Shown: positions 4,747 to 51,447 of the stretch, piece by piece
How positions within the stretch are numbered: the first letter of the stretch is position 1
Layout of the letters: each line of letters begins with the position of its first letter
Origin: Kineosporia sp. NBRC 101731
GTDB taxonomy: Bacteria; Actinomycetota; Actinomycetes; Actinomycetales; Kineosporiaceae
Direction: 5' to 3'
Assembly: GCF_030269305.1 (NCBI RefSeq)
Contig: NZ_BSTC01000001.1
Span: 1,377,467-1,441,466 of the forward strand
Length of the DNA stretch: 64,000 nt
Translations under genes and position numbers: made by a program
Notes under the pieces: generated by a model
What the model saw: the letters and a program-made list of their open reading frames with translations, nothing else
Databases searched by the model: none
What the model was told of the DNA's origin: nothing

Positions 4747-4820
4747 CGCGGGGTGGAGCAGCTCGGTAGCTCGCTGGGCTCATAACCCAGAGGTCGCAGG
4801 TTCAAATCCTGTCCCCGCTA
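4747..4820 (+). tRNA. Initiator tRNA-fMet (CAU), copy 1
   Basis: A complete cloverleaf with CAT anticodon. Two initiator hallmarks are present: position 1 (C) does not pair with position 72 (T), and the anticodon stem ends in three G:C pairs next to the loop CTCATAA. The discriminator base is A and is followed by CAA, so the terminal CCA is not encoded. Two identical copies lie at 7649 and 7856. Confidence 0.97.
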
Positions 4821-43655: not shown

Positions 43656-43857
43656 ACCAGGTCTGACGGCCTGAAACGGGTGAGTCCACACCGATCGGCG
43701 CCCTGCCCCGCTCCTGTCACTCCACTCTCGTGGCCCCAACGCGCCTTTCGCGTGCCTGAGACCGGTGTGCCCGGACGCGTCCACTCTCCCGGCCGTGAAA
43801 AGGCTTGTTGGTGGGCACATTGATGCCAGAACTGCGCAGAATCAGGAAGGTGCCCAC

Positions 43858-44580
43858 GTGGGAACCCGGGAAGACGTTTACCAGCTGCTCGAAGAGAAGA
43901 TGCTGAAGTACACCGACTACGCCGAGGTTCCGGTGATCGAGGTGGACGAGGTCGTCCTCTTCGAGGCGGTCCCGCAGCAGGGTGTGCTGCGGGTGGAGCA
44001 CATCGACGCGGAGATGAGTGAACTCACCGGCCGGGTCATCTACGTGCGCCGTCCGGTGGTCGACATGCTCTACGCGGCCGGCCAGGAACTGAAGAGCCTC
44101 GACCGCTCGCTGACGCTCCGGGTGGTCTACGGATTCCGTGCCCTGGAGGTCCAGACCCGTCTGTTCGACGAGGCCAAAGAGTCTCTGCGGCAGCAATATC
44201 CGGACGAGAACGAACTGATCGAGGCGGCCCACCGGCACGTCGCGGTGCCGTCGGTGGCGGGCTATCCGACGGGCGGCGCGGTGGCCGTCGAACTGCTGCG
44301 TGACGGGGATCCGGTCGACATGGGCACCCCGGTGATGGAGGCCGACCGCGACGCCTTCACCTTCTCGCCGTTCGTCTCCCGCGAGGCCTGGGAGTACCGG
44401 CAGCTGTTGCGCCGGGCGATGATGGCGGCCGGCTTCGCGCCCTTCGACGGCGAGTGGTGGCACTTTTCGTACGGCGACAAGGAATGGGCGCGCTACTACC
44501 GCCGGCCCGGGGCGCTGTACGACCAGGTCTCGTTCGCGGACGCGCAGAAGGTCGACCCCGACGCCGACCTGGCTCTCTGA
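43858..44580 (+). CDS. VanX-like M15D peptidase homologue lacking two zinc ligands
   Basis: A 240-residue protein related to D-alanyl-D-alanine dipeptidases (VanX/DdpX). The C-terminal GEWWHF motif with catalytic Glu and zinc His is kept. In the first zinc motif, H-x-x-G-x-A-x-D, the sequence reads YPTGGAVA: the histidine is tyrosine and the aspartate is alanine. Dipeptidase activity in the usual way is therefore doubtful; it may be non-catalytic or use another substrate. GTG 43858 is supported by AGGAAGG seven bases upstream. The tRNA-His gene follows after 126 bases. Confidence 0.75.
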   Translation: MGTREDVYQLLEEKMLKYTDYAEVPVIEVDEVVLFEAVPQQGVLRVEHIDAEMSELTGRVIYVRRPVVDMLYAAGQELKSLDRSLTLRVVYGFRALEVQTRLFDEAKESLRQQYPDENELIEAAHRHVAVPSVAGYPTGGAVAVELLRDGDPVDMGTPVMEADRDAFTFSPFVSREAWEYRQLLRRAMMAAGFAPFDGEWWHFSYGDKEWARYYRRPGALYDQVSFADAQKVDPDADLAL

Positions 44581-44667
44581 TGTGCCCTCGGGTGGGCCCT
44601 GAAAGCTCCTACGGGTGCGTCGAAAGCGTGATCCGGACCGGCCGTGGGCCGTCTGGGAAGGCCGTGG

Positions 44668-44697
44668 TTCATACCCCGGCCGATGCTCTGCTAATCT
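44668..44697 (+). promoter_or_regulatory. Promoter of tRNA-His / hisS / hisG
   Basis: TTCATA (44668-44673) and TAATCT (44692-44697) with an 18-base spacer; the -10 ends 9 bases before the mature tRNA. Confidence 0.5.
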
Positions 44698-44706
44698 ACT
44701 CGGCGA

Positions 44707-44777
44707 GCCGGGATAGCTCAGTGGTAGAGCACCTGATTGTGGATCAGGAGGCGGGGGTTCGATACCCCCTCCCGGTA
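44707..44777 (+). tRNA. tRNA-His (GUG) lacking G-1, with G1:U72 and A73
   Basis: A complete 71-base cloverleaf: acceptor GCCGGGA/TCCCGGT, D-stem GCTC/GAGC, anticodon stem CCTGA/TCAGG with loop TTGTGGA (anticodon GTG), T-stem GGGGG/CCCCC. The base before position 1 is A, so there is no encoded G-1; position 72 is T and the discriminator is A. Canonical bacterial tRNA-His has G-1 opposite C73. CCA is not encoded (CAA follows). hisS starts 71 bases downstream on the same strand. Confidence 0.93.
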
Positions 44778-44848
44778 CAAGTAGATCGTTCGTCGATCTC
44801 TTCGTGCGCCGGGCTACCTCCCCAGCTCATGAGGAAGAAGGCACAACG

Positions 44849-46345
44849 ATGACCGGCCTGGTCCGTCCGCAGAATCTCCGTGGATTCCGTGACCTGCTGC
44901 CCGAGGAGATGCTTCTCCGCAACGAGGTCGTGGCCCGCATCACCCGGGTGTATCAGTCCTACGGTTTCGTACCGCTGGACACCCCGGTGCTGGAGAGCCT
45001 GCCCACGCTGCTCGGCAGCGGTGGCGAAGAGGCCGACAAGCAGATCTTCGTCGTTCGGGAGAACACGAAACCCGTTGTCGCCGAGGGCGAAGCCGCCTCC
45101 GTCGAGGTGGGTATGCGGTTCGACCTGACCGTGCCGTTCGCCCGCGTCATCGCCCAGTACGCGCCGCAGCAGATCAAGCTGCCGTTCCGCCGCTACCACG
45201 TGGGCCCGGTCTTCCGCGCCGACGACCCGCAGCCCGAGCAGGGCCGGTTCCGGCAGTTCACGCAGCTCGACGCCGACATCGCCGGCAGCTCCACGGTGGC
45301 CGCCGACGCCGAGATCGTCGCGGTGATGAGCGCGGCCTTCGACTCCCTGGGGCTGGAGGCGTCCACCGGCTACGTCGTGCGGGTGAACAACCGCAAATTG
45401 GTGGACGCGTTCCTCGCCGGTGTGGGCATCGAGGACTTCGAGACGGCCCGGCACGTGCTGCGCGTGCTCGACAAGGCCGACAAGATCACCCCCGAGGCGC
45501 TGCGCGCCGAACTGGGGGAGGGGCGCTTCGACGTCTCGGGCGACCGGATCCGTGGTGTCGGCCTGGCCGCCGAGGAGATCGACGCGCTGCTGGTCTTCGT
45601 GAGCGTCGGCAAGGACACCCGCGTCGAGACGCTCGACGCGCTCGAGGCCCTGCTGCCGTCCACGGACCAGGCGCAGGCCGCCGTGGCTGAGGTGCGCGAG
45701 TTCCTGTCCCACCTGGACGCGCTCGGGGTGAGCGAGGCGAGCGTGCAGCTCGACCCGAGCCTGGCCCGCGGTCTGGCCTACTACACCGGCACGGTCTACG
45801 AGGCCACGCTGGTCGGCGCGGGGGTCGGCTCGGTCGGCGGTGGTGGCCGCTACGACGGGCTGGTCAGCCGCTTCAGCGACGACCCGGTCGCCGCGGTGGG
45901 TGTCTCCATCGGCATCGACCGGCTGGTGACCGGCCTGGCCAACCTGGGTGTGGAGTTCGGCACGGCCCGCACCACGGCCGACGTGGTGGTGCTGGTGATG
46001 CCCAAGGTCGAACCGGCCGAGGCCACCCGGGTGGCGGCGGAACTGCGTGCGGCCGGTGTGAACACCGAGCTGTACGTCGGTGAGTCGGTGGGCAAGGTGG
46101 GCAAGCAGCTGGCCTACGCCAACGCCCAGGGCTTCAGGGCGGCCGTGATGATCGGTGGCAACGAGGTCAAGGACGGCACCGTCACCGTGAAGAACCTGCA
46201 GGCCGGGGCTGAGTCCCGGGCCGCCATCGCGGACAACAGCGAATACCGTGCGGCCAAGTCGGCCGGGCAGATGACCGTTCCGCGGGGCGAGCTGATCAGC
46301 GTCGTCCGGGACATCCTGGGCGACACCTCGGAGGAGAACTCATGA
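44849..46345 (+). CDS. hisS: Histidyl-tRNA synthetase, divergent (alpha-proteobacterial/eukaryote-like) type
   Basis: A 498-residue class II synthetase, longer than the usual 420. Motif 2 reads PFRRYHVGPVFRADDP with QGRFRQF. It has FDLTVPFAR where bacterial enzymes have RPEGTA, NNRKLVDAFL, and the LGEGRFDVSGD insertion typical of alpha-proteobacterial and eukaryotic forms. The histidine loop reads ARGLAYYTG, with Ala at the position that is Asp in RGLDYY. A full C-terminal anticodon domain (about 395-490) is present, so it is not HisZ. ATG 44849 follows GAGGAAG. It sits directly behind a tRNA-His of matching type and overlaps hisG by ATGA. Confidence 0.9.
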   Translation: MTGLVRPQNLRGFRDLLPEEMLLRNEVVARITRVYQSYGFVPLDTPVLESLPTLLGSGGEEADKQIFVVRENTKPVVAEGEAASVEVGMRFDLTVPFARVIAQYAPQQIKLPFRRYHVGPVFRADDPQPEQGRFRQFTQLDADIAGSSTVAADAEIVAVMSAAFDSLGLEASTGYVVRVNNRKLVDAFLAGVGIEDFETARHVLRVLDKADKITPEALRAELGEGRFDVSGDRIRGVGLAAEEIDALLVFVSVGKDTRVETLDALEALLPSTDQAQAAVAEVREFLSHLDALGVSEASVQLDPSLARGLAYYTGTVYEATLVGAGVGSVGGGGRYDGLVSRFSDDPVAAVGVSIGIDRLVTGLANLGVEFGTARTTADVVVLVMPKVEPAEATRVAAELRAAGVNTELYVGESVGKVGKQLAYANAQGFRAAVMIGGNEVKDGTVTVKNLQAGAESRAAIADNSEYRAAKSAGQMTVPRGELISVVRDILGDTSEENS

Positions 46346-47355
46346 GCGACCGGCAGATCACCCTCGGCATCCCCAAGGGCAGCCTCCAGCAGAGCACCCT
46401 GGGCATCTTCGAGCGGGTCGGGCTGCAGTTCACCGGCGGCTCGCGCACGCTGTGGCTGAGCTCGAACGACCCGGAGATCGTGCCGGTCCTGCTGAAGCCG
46501 CAGGAGATCCCCATCTACGTGAAGTCCGGCCGCCTGGACGCCGGGCTCTCGGGCCGTGACTGGATCGTCGAGCAGGACGTGCTCCAGGACATCGCGGTGA
46601 AAGCGGAACTGCCCTTCTCCCGCCAGACCTCGCGCCCGATCCGCTGGGTGCTCGCGGTGCCGCAGTCGTCGTCCATCAAGACCGTGGAAGACCTGCGCGC
46701 CGAGTGCGACCGCCGCCGCCTGGCCGGCGACCCGTTCGTCATCTCCACCGAGCTCACCCGGATCTCCCGGATGTGGCTGGCCCGGCAGGGTGTCGACGCG
46801 CACGTGGAGTTCTCCTGGGGCGCCACCGAGGCCAAGGCTGAATACTTCGCCGACGCCATCATCGAGGGCGTGGAGACCGGTAATTCGCTGCGGGCCAACC
46901 ACCTTCGTGAGGTCGCGGAGGTGTTCAGCTCGACCAACCAGTTCTTCGTCAGCCGGAAGATCTACCGTGACGACGAGTGGAAGCGGAACAAGCTCGACGC
47001 GATCTCGCACCTGATCCGCGGTGCGCTGCGGGCCAACGACGTGGTCGAGCTGCGCGTGGTGGCCGATAAGCCCCTGTCCCTGGAAGAGATCCTCGGACCC
47101 GACGCCAGAGTGGTCTCGGCGTCCGATGCCGTCAACGGACAGGGTTTCACCGCCACCGTCACGCTGCCCCGGGCCTCCGTGCCCTACGCCCTGCCCGCGG
47201 TGATCGCCGCCGGTGCGACCGACGCCTGGGTCTCACCGATGTCGATCTACTACAGCCACGAGGCCGACGCGACCTCGAAGGCGGCGGCGGAAGCCCGTAA
47301 CGCCAGCGCCAGCCTCCCCCTGGCTCCCGTGTCCCCGGGCACCGGCCTGGCCTAG
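46342..47355 (+). CDS. hisG: ATP phosphoribosyltransferase homologue
   Basis: A 337-residue HisG-family enzyme: GIPKGSLQQSTLGIF at the N-terminus, SGRLDAGLSGRDWI, RWVLAVP and the phosphoribosyl-binding stretch TGNSLRANHLREV. A C-terminal extension (from about residue 225) replaces the short HisZ-dependent form, so it may act alone. It would catalyse the first step of histidine synthesis. Its sequence looks unlike the usual actinobacterial HisG, suggesting a second copy elsewhere. The start overlaps the hisS stop by 4 bases, so the two proteins are translationally coupled. Confidence 0.85.
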   Translation: MSDRQITLGIPKGSLQQSTLGIFERVGLQFTGGSRTLWLSSNDPEIVPVLLKPQEIPIYVKSGRLDAGLSGRDWIVEQDVLQDIAVKAELPFSRQTSRPIRWVLAVPQSSSIKTVEDLRAECDRRRLAGDPFVISTELTRISRMWLARQGVDAHVEFSWGATEAKAEYFADAIIEGVETGNSLRANHLREVAEVFSSTNQFFVSRKIYRDDEWKRNKLDAISHLIRGALRANDVVELRVVADKPLSLEEILGPDARVVSASDAVNGQGFTATVTLPRASVPYALPAVIAAGATDAWVSPMSIYYSHEADATSKAAAEARNASASLPLAPVSPGTGLA

Positions 47356-47372
47356 GCACACCCTTACCCCTC

Positions 47373-47432
47373 CGTGATCATGCAATGTGTCCCCGGAGTT
47401 CCAGAACGCTGGAGACACTTTGCATGATCACG
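47373..47432. repeat. Dispersed palindromic element, copy C
   Basis: A 19-bp stem with one mismatch (CGTGATCATGCAATGTGTC against GACACTTTGCATGATCACG) and a short inner palindromic region around TTCCAGAACG. It lies between the convergent hisG and Pnkp genes. Confidence 0.88.
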
Positions 47433-47452
47433 AACAAGGGGTTGGGGAGGGT

Positions 47453-50005
47453 TTACAGGCGCGGGTCGACCGGCTCGGACTCCAGGGCCAGCACTGCGAA
47501 GACCGCCTCGTGCACGCGCCACAGCGGGTCGCCCGCGGCCACCCGTTCCAGGGATTCCAGGCCCAGCGCGTACTCCCGCAGGGCTGCTGACCGTTTACGG
47601 CCCACTGCACGGGACTTCAGCCGGCTCAGGTTCTCGTCCAGCAGGTAGTCGGGGCCGTAGATGATGCGCAGGTACTCCTTCCCGCGCACCTTCAGACCGG
47701 GCTGCACCAGGCCGCGTTTGGTCCGGGTCAGGTTGGCCAGGGGTTTGACCACCATGCCCTCACCGCCCTTCCCGGTCAGTTCCTCCCACCAGGTCACGGC
47801 CTCGGCCACGGCGTTCTCGTCCGAGGGGTCGAGCACCGTGCGGGCGGTGGTCAGGAACAGCGGGTCGGCGGCCACCAACCGGTCGGCCAGGGCCAGGTGC
47901 CAGAGGTGGTCGCGGTCGTGGAAGGTTTTTCCCTCGGCGGCGAGCACCTGGAACGGCGCGATCCGCACGCCCTCCAGGCCGTCGGTCGGCCAGACGTACC
48001 GCCGGTACGCCTGACGGAACGCCGTGGCCGCCTCCCGCCGCGCGGTGGTGTGGTTGCGCAGTTCCAGGAGCGACGGAACCCGTTGGGCCGCAGCGGTCAG
48101 TGCCTTCACGGCCAGGGGCAGCGAGGCTCCGGCAGCGGCGCCGACCGCGGCGTACTGCTGGCGGATCAGGTCGCCCGCCTTCAGCGACCAGGGCAGGATC
48201 TCGGTGTCGAGCAGCAGCCACCCGGTCTCCAGCTCGTTCCAGATCCCGGTGCTCTCCAGGGCCGAACGCACCCTTGCCAGCAGGGTTTCGGTGTCGGGAT
48301 CGGAGAAGAACGGACGCCCGGTGCGGGTGTGGATCACACCGGTGCGGTCGTCGGGGAACCCGAAGCGGGCGGCGGCCACGCCGGCGTCGCGGCAGAGGAG
48401 CACCACGGCCCGCGAGCCCATGTGTTTCTCCTCGCAGATCACCTCCGGCACGCCCTCCTTGGCGTAGGCGGCGAAGGCCTCGGCGGGATGCTCCAGCAGC
48501 CCGGGCCGGTTGCTCGTCGGCGTCGGGGCCATGGTCGGCGGCAGGTGCAGCAGCCGGCGCGGGTCGATCGCGTAGCGGCTCATCACCTCCAGGGCGCCGG
48601 CCGCGTTCTCGGCCGTGACCGTCACCCGGCCGTGGTGCCGGGTCTCTACCGACCGCTTGCCGGAAACGTCGGCGAGGGTCAGAAGATCGGGGTCCCGGGT
48701 GGCGGCCGGGGCCGCCGGGGCGGCCAGGGGTCGCGCCGGTTCGTACCAGACCTGCTCGGCCGGCACGCTGACGATCTCCTTCTCCGGATAACGCAGCGCG
48801 GTCAGGCTTCCCCCGAACGCGCACCCGGTGTCCAGGCAGAGCGTGTTGTTGACCCACTCCGGTACGACGGTCGGTGTGTGCCCGTAGAGCACCATGGCCC
48901 GGCCGCGGTAGTCGTTCGCCCACGGGTACCGCACCGGCAGGCCGTAGCTGTCGGTCTCGCCGGTGGTGTCGCCGTACATCGCGAAACTCCGCACCCGGCC
49001 CGAGGCCCGGCCGTGATAGGCCTCTTTCAGCCCGGCGTGGGCCACCACCAGCCGGCCGCCGTCGAGCACGTAGTGCGCGACCAGGTGGTCGCAGAAGCTC
49101 GCGACCTTCGCCCGGAACTCCGGCGTCTGCGTCTCGAGCTGGGCCATGGTGCGCTCCAGCCCGTGCGTGAGTTTCACGTTGCGCCCGCTGAGCGCCCGCA
49201 CCAGCTTGTGCTCGTGGTTACCGCTGACGCAGAGCGCGTGACCCGACTCGATCATGCCCATCACCAGGCGCAGCACGCCGGGGGAGTCGGGGCCGCGGTC
49301 GACCAGGTCACCGACGAACACGGCGGTGCGCCCGGCCGGCGGCACGGCGTCGACCGGATTGCCGTCCGGGTCGAGCACGACGCCGTAACCGAGCTTGCCC
49401 AGCAGGCTCTCCAGCTCGGAGCGGCAGCCGTGCACGTCGCCGATCACGTCGAACGGGCCGGTGCGGGTGCGCAGGTCGTTCAGCAGCGGCTCGCGCACGA
49501 TCACCGCGGCGGCGGCCTTCTCCGGGGTGTCGAGCACGTGCACGCGCCGGAAACCCTCGCGGCGCAGGCCCTTGATCGAGCGCTGGAGCTGGTCGGCCTG
49601 GCGGTGGATCACCCGGTCGCCGAAGCTGCGGTCGGAACGCGCGGCGTTGCGCTCCAGGCAGACCTCCTGCGGCATGTCGAGCACGATCGCCACAGGCAGC
49701 ACGTCGTGGTCGCGGGCCAGTTTCAGCAGGCTCGCCCGCGACTCCTTCTGCACGTTGGTCGCGTCGACCACGGTCAGCCGACCGGCGGCCAGGCGCTTGC
49801 CCGCGATGTGGTGCAGCACGTCGAACGCGTCGGCGGTGGCATCCTGGGAGTTCTCGTCGTTCGAGACCAGACCCCGGCAGAAGTCGCTGGAGAGCACCTC
49901 GTAGCGGCCGAACTTCGCGGCGGCGAAGGTGGACTTGCCCGAGCCGGAGACCCCGACGAGCACCACCAGGCAGGTGTCGGGGATGGTCAGGTGGTGGTCG
50001 GTCAT
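47453..50005 (-). CDS. pnkp: Polynucleotide kinase-phosphatase-ligase of the Pnkp/Hen1 RNA-repair system
   Basis: An 850-residue three-domain repair enzyme. The N-terminal 5'-kinase (about 1-170) has GVSGSGKST. The central metallophosphatase (about 175-430) has GDVHG, GDLVDRG and GNHEHK. The C-terminal nucleotidyltransferase/ligase half has the KxxG lysine in EEKHMGSR and a late GEGMVVKPL motif. Bacterial Pnkp heals and, with Hen1, seals and 2'-O-methylates RNAs cut by ribotoxins. ATG 50005 overlaps the hen1 stop as ATGA. Confidence 0.95.
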   Translation of the reverse strand: MTDHHLTIPDTCLVVLVGVSGSGKSTFAAAKFGRYEVLSSDFCRGLVSNDENSQDATADAFDVLHHIAGKRLAAGRLTVVDATNVQKESRASLLKLARDHDVLPVAIVLDMPQEVCLERNAARSDRSFGDRVIHRQADQLQRSIKGLRREGFRRVHVLDTPEKAAAAVIVREPLLNDLRTRTGPFDVIGDVHGCRSELESLLGKLGYGVVLDPDGNPVDAVPPAGRTAVFVGDLVDRGPDSPGVLRLVMGMIESGHALCVSGNHEHKLVRALSGRNVKLTHGLERTMAQLETQTPEFRAKVASFCDHLVAHYVLDGGRLVVAHAGLKEAYHGRASGRVRSFAMYGDTTGETDSYGLPVRYPWANDYRGRAMVLYGHTPTVVPEWVNNTLCLDTGCAFGGSLTALRYPEKEIVSVPAEQVWYEPARPLAAPAAPAATRDPDLLTLADVSGKRSVETRHHGRVTVTAENAAGALEVMSRYAIDPRRLLHLPPTMAPTPTSNRPGLLEHPAEAFAAYAKEGVPEVICEEKHMGSRAVVLLCRDAGVAAARFGFPDDRTGVIHTRTGRPFFSDPDTETLLARVRSALESTGIWNELETGWLLLDTEILPWSLKAGDLIRQQYAAVGAAAGASLPLAVKALTAAAQRVPSLLELRNHTTARREAATAFRQAYRRYVWPTDGLEGVRIAPFQVLAAEGKTFHDRDHLWHLALADRLVAADPLFLTTARTVLDPSDENAVAEAVTWWEELTGKGGEGMVVKPLANLTRTKRGLVQPGLKVRGKEYLRIIYGPDYLLDENLSRLKSRAVGRKRSAALREYALGLESLERVAAGDPLWRVHEAVFAVLALESEPVDPRL

Positions 50006-51447
50006 CGGGACACCTCTGCGGCAGACGACAGGTCGAGGGTGAGAACGGCCATCTGCGTGGGTGGCCCGGCCTCGGTGGACTCCACCCCGACACCCTTGAA
50101 GCGCACCGTGTATCCGTACTGCTCGGCCACCGCGCCGGCCCAGGCCTGGAACGTCGCCCGGTCCCACTCGAAACGGTGGTCGGTGTGCCGGGTCTGGCCC
50201 TCAGACAGGCCGAAGTGCTGGTTGTGCTCGACGTTCGGGGTGGTCACCAGCACCACGCCGGGCCGGGCCGTGCCGAAGACGCTCGAGGCCAGGGCCGGTA
50301 GCCGGGACTCGTCGACGTGCTCGATCACCTCGGACAGCACCGCCGCGTCGAAGCCGGCCAGGCTCGGGTCGGCGTAGACCAGGGACGACTGGCGCAGCTC
50401 GATGCGCTCGGCGGCACGGTCGGGCAGATCGTCCAGCCGCAGCCGTCGAGAGGCGGTCCGCAGCGCTCGGTGTGACACGTCAACGCCGAGAATGCGCTGA
50501 TAGCGGGGATTCTCCAGCAGGCGGCCGAGTAGCTTGCCCTCTCCGCAGCCGAGATCGGCCACGCTCTGCGCCCCGCAGGCCTCCAGCGTCTCGACCAGGG
50601 CGTCCAGACGGAGTGAGGCCAGGGAGACCCGGGCTTCCGGTGGGGCGTCGTCGTCTTCCAGGGGCTCTTCCAGGAGCTCGCCCTCGGGGGCCGGAGCGTC
50701 TTCCAGCCCGGCGAACCGCTCGGCGGCGTCGTCGATCAGCCACCGCTGGTGGCGCAGGTACCGCTGCGTGATCAGGGCCCGCTCGGGGTGGGCGGCCAGC
50801 CAGCCCTCCCCGGCGCGGACCAGCTTGTCGACCTCGTCGGCGGTGACCCAGTAGTGCTTGGCGTCGTCGAGCACCGGCAGCAGTACGTACAGCTGGCTCA
50901 GGGCCTCGGAGAGCAGCAGCTCACCGGTCAGCCGCAGGTCCACGTAGGGCGAGTCGCCCCAGCCGAGCTCCGGGTCCAGGGGCACCGGGGTCACCGTGCA
51001 GGTCCAGCCCAGTGGCTCGAACAGGTTACGGGCCAGATGGGCGTCTCCCCGGCAGGGCAGTGCCGGTACCTCGATCTCCAGGCGCAGCGGGGTGCCGGGC
51101 AGCTCCGGGCGCACGTCGCAGCGGCCCGAGATGGCGGTCTTGAACACTTTGCCCAAGGCGACGGCGAGCAGCGACGACGCGGCGTAGGGCCGGTCGTTCA
51201 CGTACTGCGCGAGGGAGAAACCCTCTACCGGTCTGGAGCCGCGCCCCCGCACCAGCGCGATCGGGTCGACCTCCAGCAGTAGTGCTGCGGTGCAGGTCGT
51301 CGCATCGGCCCGGGGGTAGAACACATGCGCCGTACCGACGGGCAGGCCGAACTTCTGCGCGCGGTCGGGGTGCTTGTGCAACAGGTAGCCCAGGTCGGTG
51401 GCCGGGGCCTCGTCCCGGTCGCTGGTCGAGGTGATGGTCAGGAACAC
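50002..51447 (-). CDS. hen1: 3'-terminal RNA ribose 2'-O-methyltransferase Hen1
   Basis: A 481-residue protein with the Hen1 N-terminal domain that activates Pnkp ligation (starting LTITSTSDRDEAPATDLGYL, with HKHPDRAQ), an acidic linker (about 245-275), and a methyltransferase domain. The latter shows the SAM loop ADLGCGEGKLL and the metal-binding EVIEH, with TPNVEHN and TRHTDHRFEW, characteristic of Hen1. It methylates the ribose 3' of the repair junction and protects it from recutting. First gene of the two-gene operon. Confidence 0.95.
   Translation of the reverse strand: MFLTITSTSDRDEAPATDLGYLLHKHPDRAQKFGLPVGTAHVFYPRADATTCTAALLLEVDPIALVRGRGSRPVEGFSLAQYVNDRPYAASSLLAVALGKVFKTAISGRCDVRPELPGTPLRLEIEVPALPCRGDAHLARNLFEPLGWTCTVTPVPLDPELGWGDSPYVDLRLTGELLLSEALSQLYVLLPVLDDAKHYWVTADEVDKLVRAGEGWLAAHPERALITQRYLRHQRWLIDDAAERFAGLEDAPAPEGELLEEPLEDDDAPPEARVSLASLRLDALVETLEACGAQSVADLGCGEGKLLGRLLENPRYQRILGVDVSHRALRTASRRLRLDDLPDRAAERIELRQSSLVYADPSLAGFDAAVLSEVIEHVDESRLPALASSVFGTARPGVVLVTTPNVEHNQHFGLSEGQTRHTDHRFEWDRATFQAWAGAVAEQYGYTVRFKGVGVESTEAGPPTQMAVLTLDLSSAAEVSR

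Follow-up and report, generated by a model that had tools for sequence, protein, structure and literature searches.

In the window, by which we mean the whole 64,000-nucleotide stretch of DNA from Kineosporia sp. NBRC 101731 that was analysed, a tRNA-His gene without an encoded G-1 lies directly upstream of a divergent hisS. The two belong to a run of four genes on one strand, with the following features.

43861..44580, + strand: gene of the M15 family (D-Ala-D-Ala dipeptidase-like), first member of the cassette (PF01427, E 3.4e-15)
44688..44695, + strand: CTGCTAAT, possible -10 region of a tRNA-hisS-hisG unit (CTGCTAnT in 6/6 genus genomes)
44707..44777, + strand: tRNA-His(GUG), read from the sequence and called by ARAGORN; the single tRNA-His among 57 tRNA genes
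44849..46345, + strand: hisS, divergent histidyl-tRNA synthetase (HisRS) of 498 aa (TIGR00442, 351.6 bits)
45209..45259, + strand: HisRS residues 121-137, VFRADDPQPEQGRFRQF, which hold motif 2 with its loop; canonical and alpha-type rows have a loop shorter by two residues
45512..45565, + strand: insert LGEGRFDVSGDRIRGVGL, residues 222-239, common to alpha-type HisRS (GR.D.SGD pattern)
46214..46270, + strand: C-terminal insert SRAAIADNSEYRAAKSAGQ, residues 456-474, common to alpha-type HisRS (comparison of rows)
46342..47355, + strand: hisG, ATP phosphoribosyltransferase (TIGR00070, 128.8 bits)

The tRNA begins with G1 at 44707 and ends with U72 at 44776 and A73 at 44777, its acceptor stem (GCCGGGA/TCCCGGT) closing on a G1:U72 pair. 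The base at -1 (44706) is A. G-1 is not encoded, and the G-1:C73 pair, the canonical bacterial trait, is absent from the sequence. CCA is not encoded either, and the D loop and variable loop are both short. ARAGORN calls tRNA-His(GTG) at 44707-44778 on the + strand, the last base of its call lying beyond A73. The ATG of hisS, at 44849, follows 71 bases past A73. Both the program and direct reading thus confirm the sequence-only reading, which had described an A at -1, G1:T72, A73 and a hisS 71 bases on. Because the tRNA sequence is identical in this genome and in all five congeners, and nine tRNAs of this kind were found among 42 read, the combination of G1:U72, A73 and no G-1 is not a chance feature.

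The reading frame of the M15 gene opens at 43765, and comparisons start from 43861. hisS ends at 46345, and hisG overlaps it by 4 bases. A scan of 44500-47500 with consensus models for promoters and terminators found no promoter-like site and no terminator; CTGCTAAT, upstream of the tRNA, is a possible -10 region. The hisG product, of 337 aa, matches only the catalytic domain PF01634 in Pfam and gives no match to a regulatory C-terminal domain. The gene after hisG is Pnkp, not hisZ. This kinase-phosphatase-ligase (PF16542) and Hen1 (PF12623), together at 47453-51447 on the - strand and convergent to hisG, are a bacterial RNA repair pair. They occupy the same place in 6/6 genus genomes.

The genome is a draft of 8.26 Mb in 88 contigs, with completeness 99.11% and contamination 2.65%. 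The sequence-only reading had proposed searching it for a second tRNA-His and a second hisS, and the search showed a single tRNA-His and a single hisS. Rfam RF00005 detects 57 tRNA genes in this 99.11% complete assembly, and ARAGORN, with which all of them were typed, assigns exactly one to tRNA-His; TIGR00442 gives one match over its hisS cut-off of 286.75 bits plus three weak partial ones; neither a second tRNA-His nor a canonical hisS was found in the draft. Profile search likewise finds hisG as a single copy in this genome and in G004, G005 and G764. Within the window there are also three tRNA-Met(CAT) genes of equal Rfam score, at 4747, 7649 and 7856, in one stretch of 3.2 kb; the genome has six.

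A genome-wide search also bears on whether G-1 might be added after transcription by Thg1 or a Thg1-like enzyme, which would leave the mature 5' end ordinary. Eukaryotic tRNA-His does carry A73 and receives a G-1 opposite it, according to the excerpted text of PMC6471195. The Thg1 model PF04446, however, has no match in this genome, and the positive control was found in Methanosarcina acetivorans. Bacterial and archaeal Thg1-like proteins are moreover described there as strictly template-dependent, for which A73 is unsuited (PMC6471195, in part). We regard such an addition as extremely unlikely.

The place that hisS once held can be recognised from relatives. In the sister genera G007 and G008, hisS lies in a relA, DUF349-MBL-hisS-AKR-aspS region, and in G009 relA and DUF349-MBL-hisS are present up to a contig end. 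In the genome studied here and in its congener G004, DUF349, MBL and aspS remain together and hisS is missing from the old site; the distance from MBL to aspS is 1.35-1.65 kb in 6/6 genus genomes. By eye, an opposite-strand reading frame in the corresponding gap of the present genome resembles radical-SAM proteins. Both genus genomes read at this site have lost the ancestral hisS. Since the single hisG shares 27.6% identity, over 225 residues, with its counterpart in sister genome G008, this gene has apparently been replaced as well.

The distribution was sampled at increasing distance. A set of 78 genomes, made up of this one and its relatives, yields one HisRS match in each of 5/5 congeners, with identities of 82-95%. 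Beyond the genus, identity does not exceed 41% in 70 of 72 genomes, and the other two (G027 and G041) give no match. In a class sample of 394 genomes, the present genome alone matches at E 1e-70 or better. A phylum sample of 396 gave 24 matches at E 1e-60 or better, and the tRNA could be read in 21 of these: A73 tRNAs occur in the present genome, in G764 (HisRS match at 63% identity) and in G791 (41%). A pattern search for tRNA-His in 50 chosen genomes found one each in 42 and none in 8 (the phylum genomes G677 and G794 among them). Read by one script, the 42 divide into 33 with G-1 and C73 and nine with A73 and U72 and no G-1. The nine are the present genome, its 5 congeners, G810 (which is L013, a Nitriliruptoraceae MAG), G764 and G791; in all nine the tRNA adjoins hisS. 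No tRNA was found in the fetched flanks of canonical hisS loci (24/24 for L099-L122 and 21/21 for L125-L145), several of which end at contig ends. The type of tRNA covaries with the type of enzyme.

The comparison also informs the question of the 5' end. In standard tRNA-His, it is the -1:73 pairing that shifts the cut of RNase P. A different use of position -1, in which RNase P leaves A-1 in place and HisRS uses the extra base, would fit the presence of A at -1 in 8/8 window-type tRNAs, and part of PMC9976931 states that Aeropyrum HisRS can recognise A-1. Those eight tRNAs, however, represent two clusters of closely related genomes; no pair can form between A-1 and A73; and position -1 is C in G791 and T in three alphaproteobacterial tRNAs. 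We therefore consider retention of A-1 very unlikely.

The order M15-tRNA-His-hisS-hisG is found in 6/6 genus genomes and recurs in distant lineages. G764, a fragmentary assembly of completeness 84, keeps it entire, with identities of 53% for M15, 61% for hisS and 61% for hisG. L013, a single 4.6 kb contig, has M15, the tRNA and hisS before the contig ends just inside hisG. With one assembly fragmentary and the other a short contig, single-copy replacement in these two lineages is tentative. In both, the M15 gene occupies the equivalent position with 52-53% identity; in 5/5 congeners its identity is 87-97%. A search of G764's contig, 15.3 kb long, found neither Pnkp nor Hen1. Other members of G764's family, f67, have G-1 and C73 in 14/14 tRNAs read, with a different HisRS, and genomes from other genera of the Kineosporia strain's own family have them in 7/7. 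Because related lineages thus keep G-1/C73, both genera look like recipients, and because hisS is 61% identical between them, neither took the cassette recently from the other. That tRNA and synthetase were acquired or evolved together as a unit, as had been proposed from the window alone, is borne out by this synteny and by the likeness of the tRNAs described below; the gene order supports a joint movement of tRNA-His, synthetase and hisG.

The tRNA itself speaks to whether it came with the enzyme or was remodelled at home, that is, whether a resident tRNA-His lost G-1 and gained A73 and U72 after a foreign hisS arrived. There is a precedent, in that Ardell and Andersson in 2006 reportedly argued that the alphaproteobacterial tRNA adapted in place after transfer of HisRS. 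Excerpts of two further papers likewise connect a transferred HisRS with changed tRNA traits in alphaproteobacteria (PMC3937112, PMC9976931). Against this, the tRNA is far closer to that of L013 and G764 (64/71 positions identical with L013) than to those of three sister genera (51-53 of 76 aligned places), and the short D and variable loops and the position in the cassette are held in common with L013 and G764. Remodelling in place is accordingly improbable.

The HisRS was compared with other sequences in rows, of which 17 are A73-type or alpha (8 window-type, G791 and 8 alphaproteobacterial, many of them close relatives) and 123 are others. Among alphaproteobacterial records, tRNA-His was sought in L146, L147, L148 and L150 and found in three, and the A73 type is assumed for L149, L151, L198, L199 and L200. 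In one of these, L198 (Sinorhizobium meliloti Ak57, CP090106.1), hisS is unannotated and matches in two pieces, which indicates an interrupted gene or a sequencing error. The insert with the GR.D.SGD pattern, LGEGRFDVSGDRIRGVGL, occurs in 15/17 A73-type or alpha rows and the C-terminal insert SRAAIADNSEYRAAKSAGQ in 16/17, and each in 0/123 of the others. The first insert is gapped or shortened in the HisRS of Nostoc, Elizabethkingia and human. An AlphaFold2 model of the window enzyme has a mean pLDDT of 87.5 and predicts this insert to be ordered (pLDDT about 90). The best Foldseek matches of the model are HisRS structures, human chains coming first by E-value; by sequence the scores are 217 bits for Nostoc, 214 for Elizabethkingia and 179 for human. 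The sequence-only reading had named FDLTVP, NNRKL and LGEGR as alpha-proteobacterial or eukaryote-like features. Only LGEGR discriminates (12/17 A73-type or alpha rows, 0/123 others); FDLTVP (8/17 and 98/123) and NNRKL (8/17 and 33/123) are common HisRS sequence.

Motif 2 sets the window enzymes apart. Its loop reads RADDPQPEQGR in 8/8 window-type rows and R(N/R)EKPGPGR in 9/9 alpha-type rows, in three of which the search expression began early and contains the motif; a shorter loop is present in 119/123 other HisRS rows, the remaining 4 being unmatched by the expression. Gly123 in the motif IIb loop is described in part of PMC3937112 as a mark of alphaproteobacterial A73-type enzymes. At the equivalent place, located by motif and not by E. 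coli numbering, the window clade has PQ (8/8 rows), as against PG in the alpha rows together with G791 (9/9). Gly at this place also co-occurs with a G-1/C73 tRNA in actinobacterial genomes (L126-L145, families f67, f92 and f120; 17/17 genomes with the tRNA read). Taken as a sign of the A73 rule in general, Gly123 fails in both directions, being absent from the window clade and present with G-1/C73.

Phylogeny was examined in an IQ-TREE analysis of 69 of the 140 rows, hand-picked to represent groups, and in a quick tree of 140 rows, before which L028 and L198 were dropped as too short. L120, on a branch of 2.78 in the larger tree, was omitted from the smaller. In the 69-row tree the present enzyme, two congeners, L013 and G764 form a clade with support 100/100, set off by a long separate branch (1.02). 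Grouping this clade with canonical enzymes of the order and family is rejected (p-AU 0.0018, with groups defined once the first tree was known), in agreement with the proposal that the HisRS is divergent and non-canonical. Its assignment to the alpha type found no support in motif 2, which differs, or in the 69-row tree, where the window clade lies outside the clade of alpha rows and G791 (100/100). The branch joining the two clades has support of 42/44 only, and the 140-row quick tree does not unite them (2 label changes). A union of the window clade with the f67/f92 enzymes, which occur with G-1/C73 tRNAs, was not rejected (p 0.15).

These trees and the gene order speak against a pair that came straight from an alphaproteobacterium, which the two inserts in common with alpha-type HisRS would suggest, as would the occurrence of an alpha-clade enzyme (100/100) in another actinobacterial genome, G791. 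The window clade's position outside the alpha clade on a branch of 1.02, its identity of about 37-41% to the alpha rows printed, its different motif 2 loop and a hisG right after hisS, as opposed to hisS-regulatory subunit-hisG in three annotated alpha loci, leave such an origin unsupported by the tree or by motif 2, and we judge it quite unlikely.

G791 is a case of its own (records L124, L152 and L194). It has a G-1-less A73/U72 tRNA-His, with C at -1, beside an alphaproteobacterial-type hisS, and two hisG genes elsewhere in the genome. Its HisRS falls with the alpha rows at 100/100, its place among them having only 87/52, and has the alpha motif 2, which makes a transfer from or near the alphaproteobacteria likely. 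G791 is a third actinobacterial case, apparently by a separate transfer. In Ornithinimicrobium, by comparison, the HisRS of L023 and L089 lies inside Lysobacterales in the 69-row tree, and the tRNA-His of the L023 and L075 genomes keeps G-1/C73; these three records (L023, L075, L089) probably reflect ordinary transfer of hisS without a change in the tRNA rule.

A G-1-less pair is known from the Rhodobacteraceae, Rhizobiales, Caulobacterales and Hyphomonadaceae (RRCH-type) of the alphaproteobacteria. The window pair resembles it in having no encoded G-1, G1:U72 and A73 (in agreement with 3/3 alphaproteobacterial tRNA-His read) and a HisRS with both inserts. It differs in the Gln and the two extra residues in motif 2, where the alphas have Gly123, in an enzyme that forms its own deep clade, in a hisG directly after hisS, and in a tRNA adjoining hisS; no tRNA was present in the stretches around six alpha hisS genes. 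With the canonical actinobacterial system, represented by sister genera G006-G012, it has in common one tRNA-His found per genome and a class II HisRS. That system differs in its G-1:C73 tRNA (7/7), in a hisS set in the DUF349-MBL-hisS region (three examined), and in a HisRS without the inserts in the rows tested and 32-36% identical to that of the window. Among eukaryotes, tRNA-His is G-1-less in trypanosomes and Acanthamoeba and Thg1-dependent in human and yeast. Eukaryotic tRNA-His has A73 as here (PMC6471195 and PMC9976931, both in part), and human HisRS has the motif 2 loop length and R-x-D pattern (RRDNPAMTRGRYREF) of the window enzyme. It differs in being without the first insert and in scoring lower than Nostoc and Elizabethkingia; the Thg1-dependent eukaryotes differ from a genome with no Thg1 match.

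No donor was found among the mobile elements searched. Matches in plasmids (88/88 records) and phages (16/16) are all under 60% identity. In IMG/VR two HisRS matched at 36-38% and the tRNA had no match, and a search of plasmid DNA with the surroundings of the tRNA found no site where 80% of the query was covered.

We consider it highly probable that the ancestor of the genus took up the cassette horizontally and that its resident hisS, tRNA-His and hisG then disappeared, leaving histidine codons to be read under a non-standard identity rule by a pair that is probably orthogonal. On this explanation, in which we infer the donor and the direction of transfer, the ancestor would have gained an M15 peptidase, a G-1-less A73/U72 tRNA-His, a matching HisRS and a divergent hisG, and the resident genes would then have been lost. 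RNase P would cut at G1. Work by Yuan and colleagues in 2011 is said to have found that Caulobacter crescentus HisRS charges its G-1-less tRNA by the anticodon, A73 and U72. By analogy, the predicted recognition elements of the window HisRS are the anticodon, A73 and U72 in place of G-1:C73, and the enzyme may read A73 through its longer motif 2 loop. Because this is the expected recognition, the pair is probably orthogonal to the standard bacterial one and would ignore G-1:C73 tRNAs. The Caulobacter rule (anticodon, A73 and U72, no G-1) is restated in a section of PMC9976931, and the E. coli pair is orthogonal in Caulobacter according to part of PMC3875453.

A broader joint reading can be put forward tentatively, at slightly less than even probability. 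G-1-independent histidine identity may not be a single alphaproteobacterial invention, and there may be an older bacterial HisRS family that moves as a self-sufficient cassette together with a G-1-less tRNA-His of its own, joined in Actinomycetota by hisG. In at least three actinobacterial lineages it would have taken the place of the standard system. The alphaproteobacterial enzyme would then be one branch of this family, and the window branch would read A73 by a different motif 2 loop. Among the titles and abstract beginnings listed from the open-licence literature, none described a G-1-less tRNA-His for Actinomycetota; a mention in the primary papers of 2006, 2007 and 2011 is possible.

In Actinomycetota, whether the rule applies cannot be predicted from the published Gly123 mark. 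An identity rule described in bacteria for one proteobacterial group appears to exist in a distant phylum as well, in the form of a package that can be transferred. For work on the genetic code, the actinobacterial pair is a candidate for a new orthogonal pair, its motif 2 loop differing from that of the alphas. One actinobacterial genus appears to run on a foreign histidine-tRNA system, its normal bacterial one lost, with tRNA, synthetase and hisG replaced together. The family's remaining genera still have the standard system, so that only a short evolutionary distance needs to be bridged in studying how an essential tRNA/synthetase pair is replaced.
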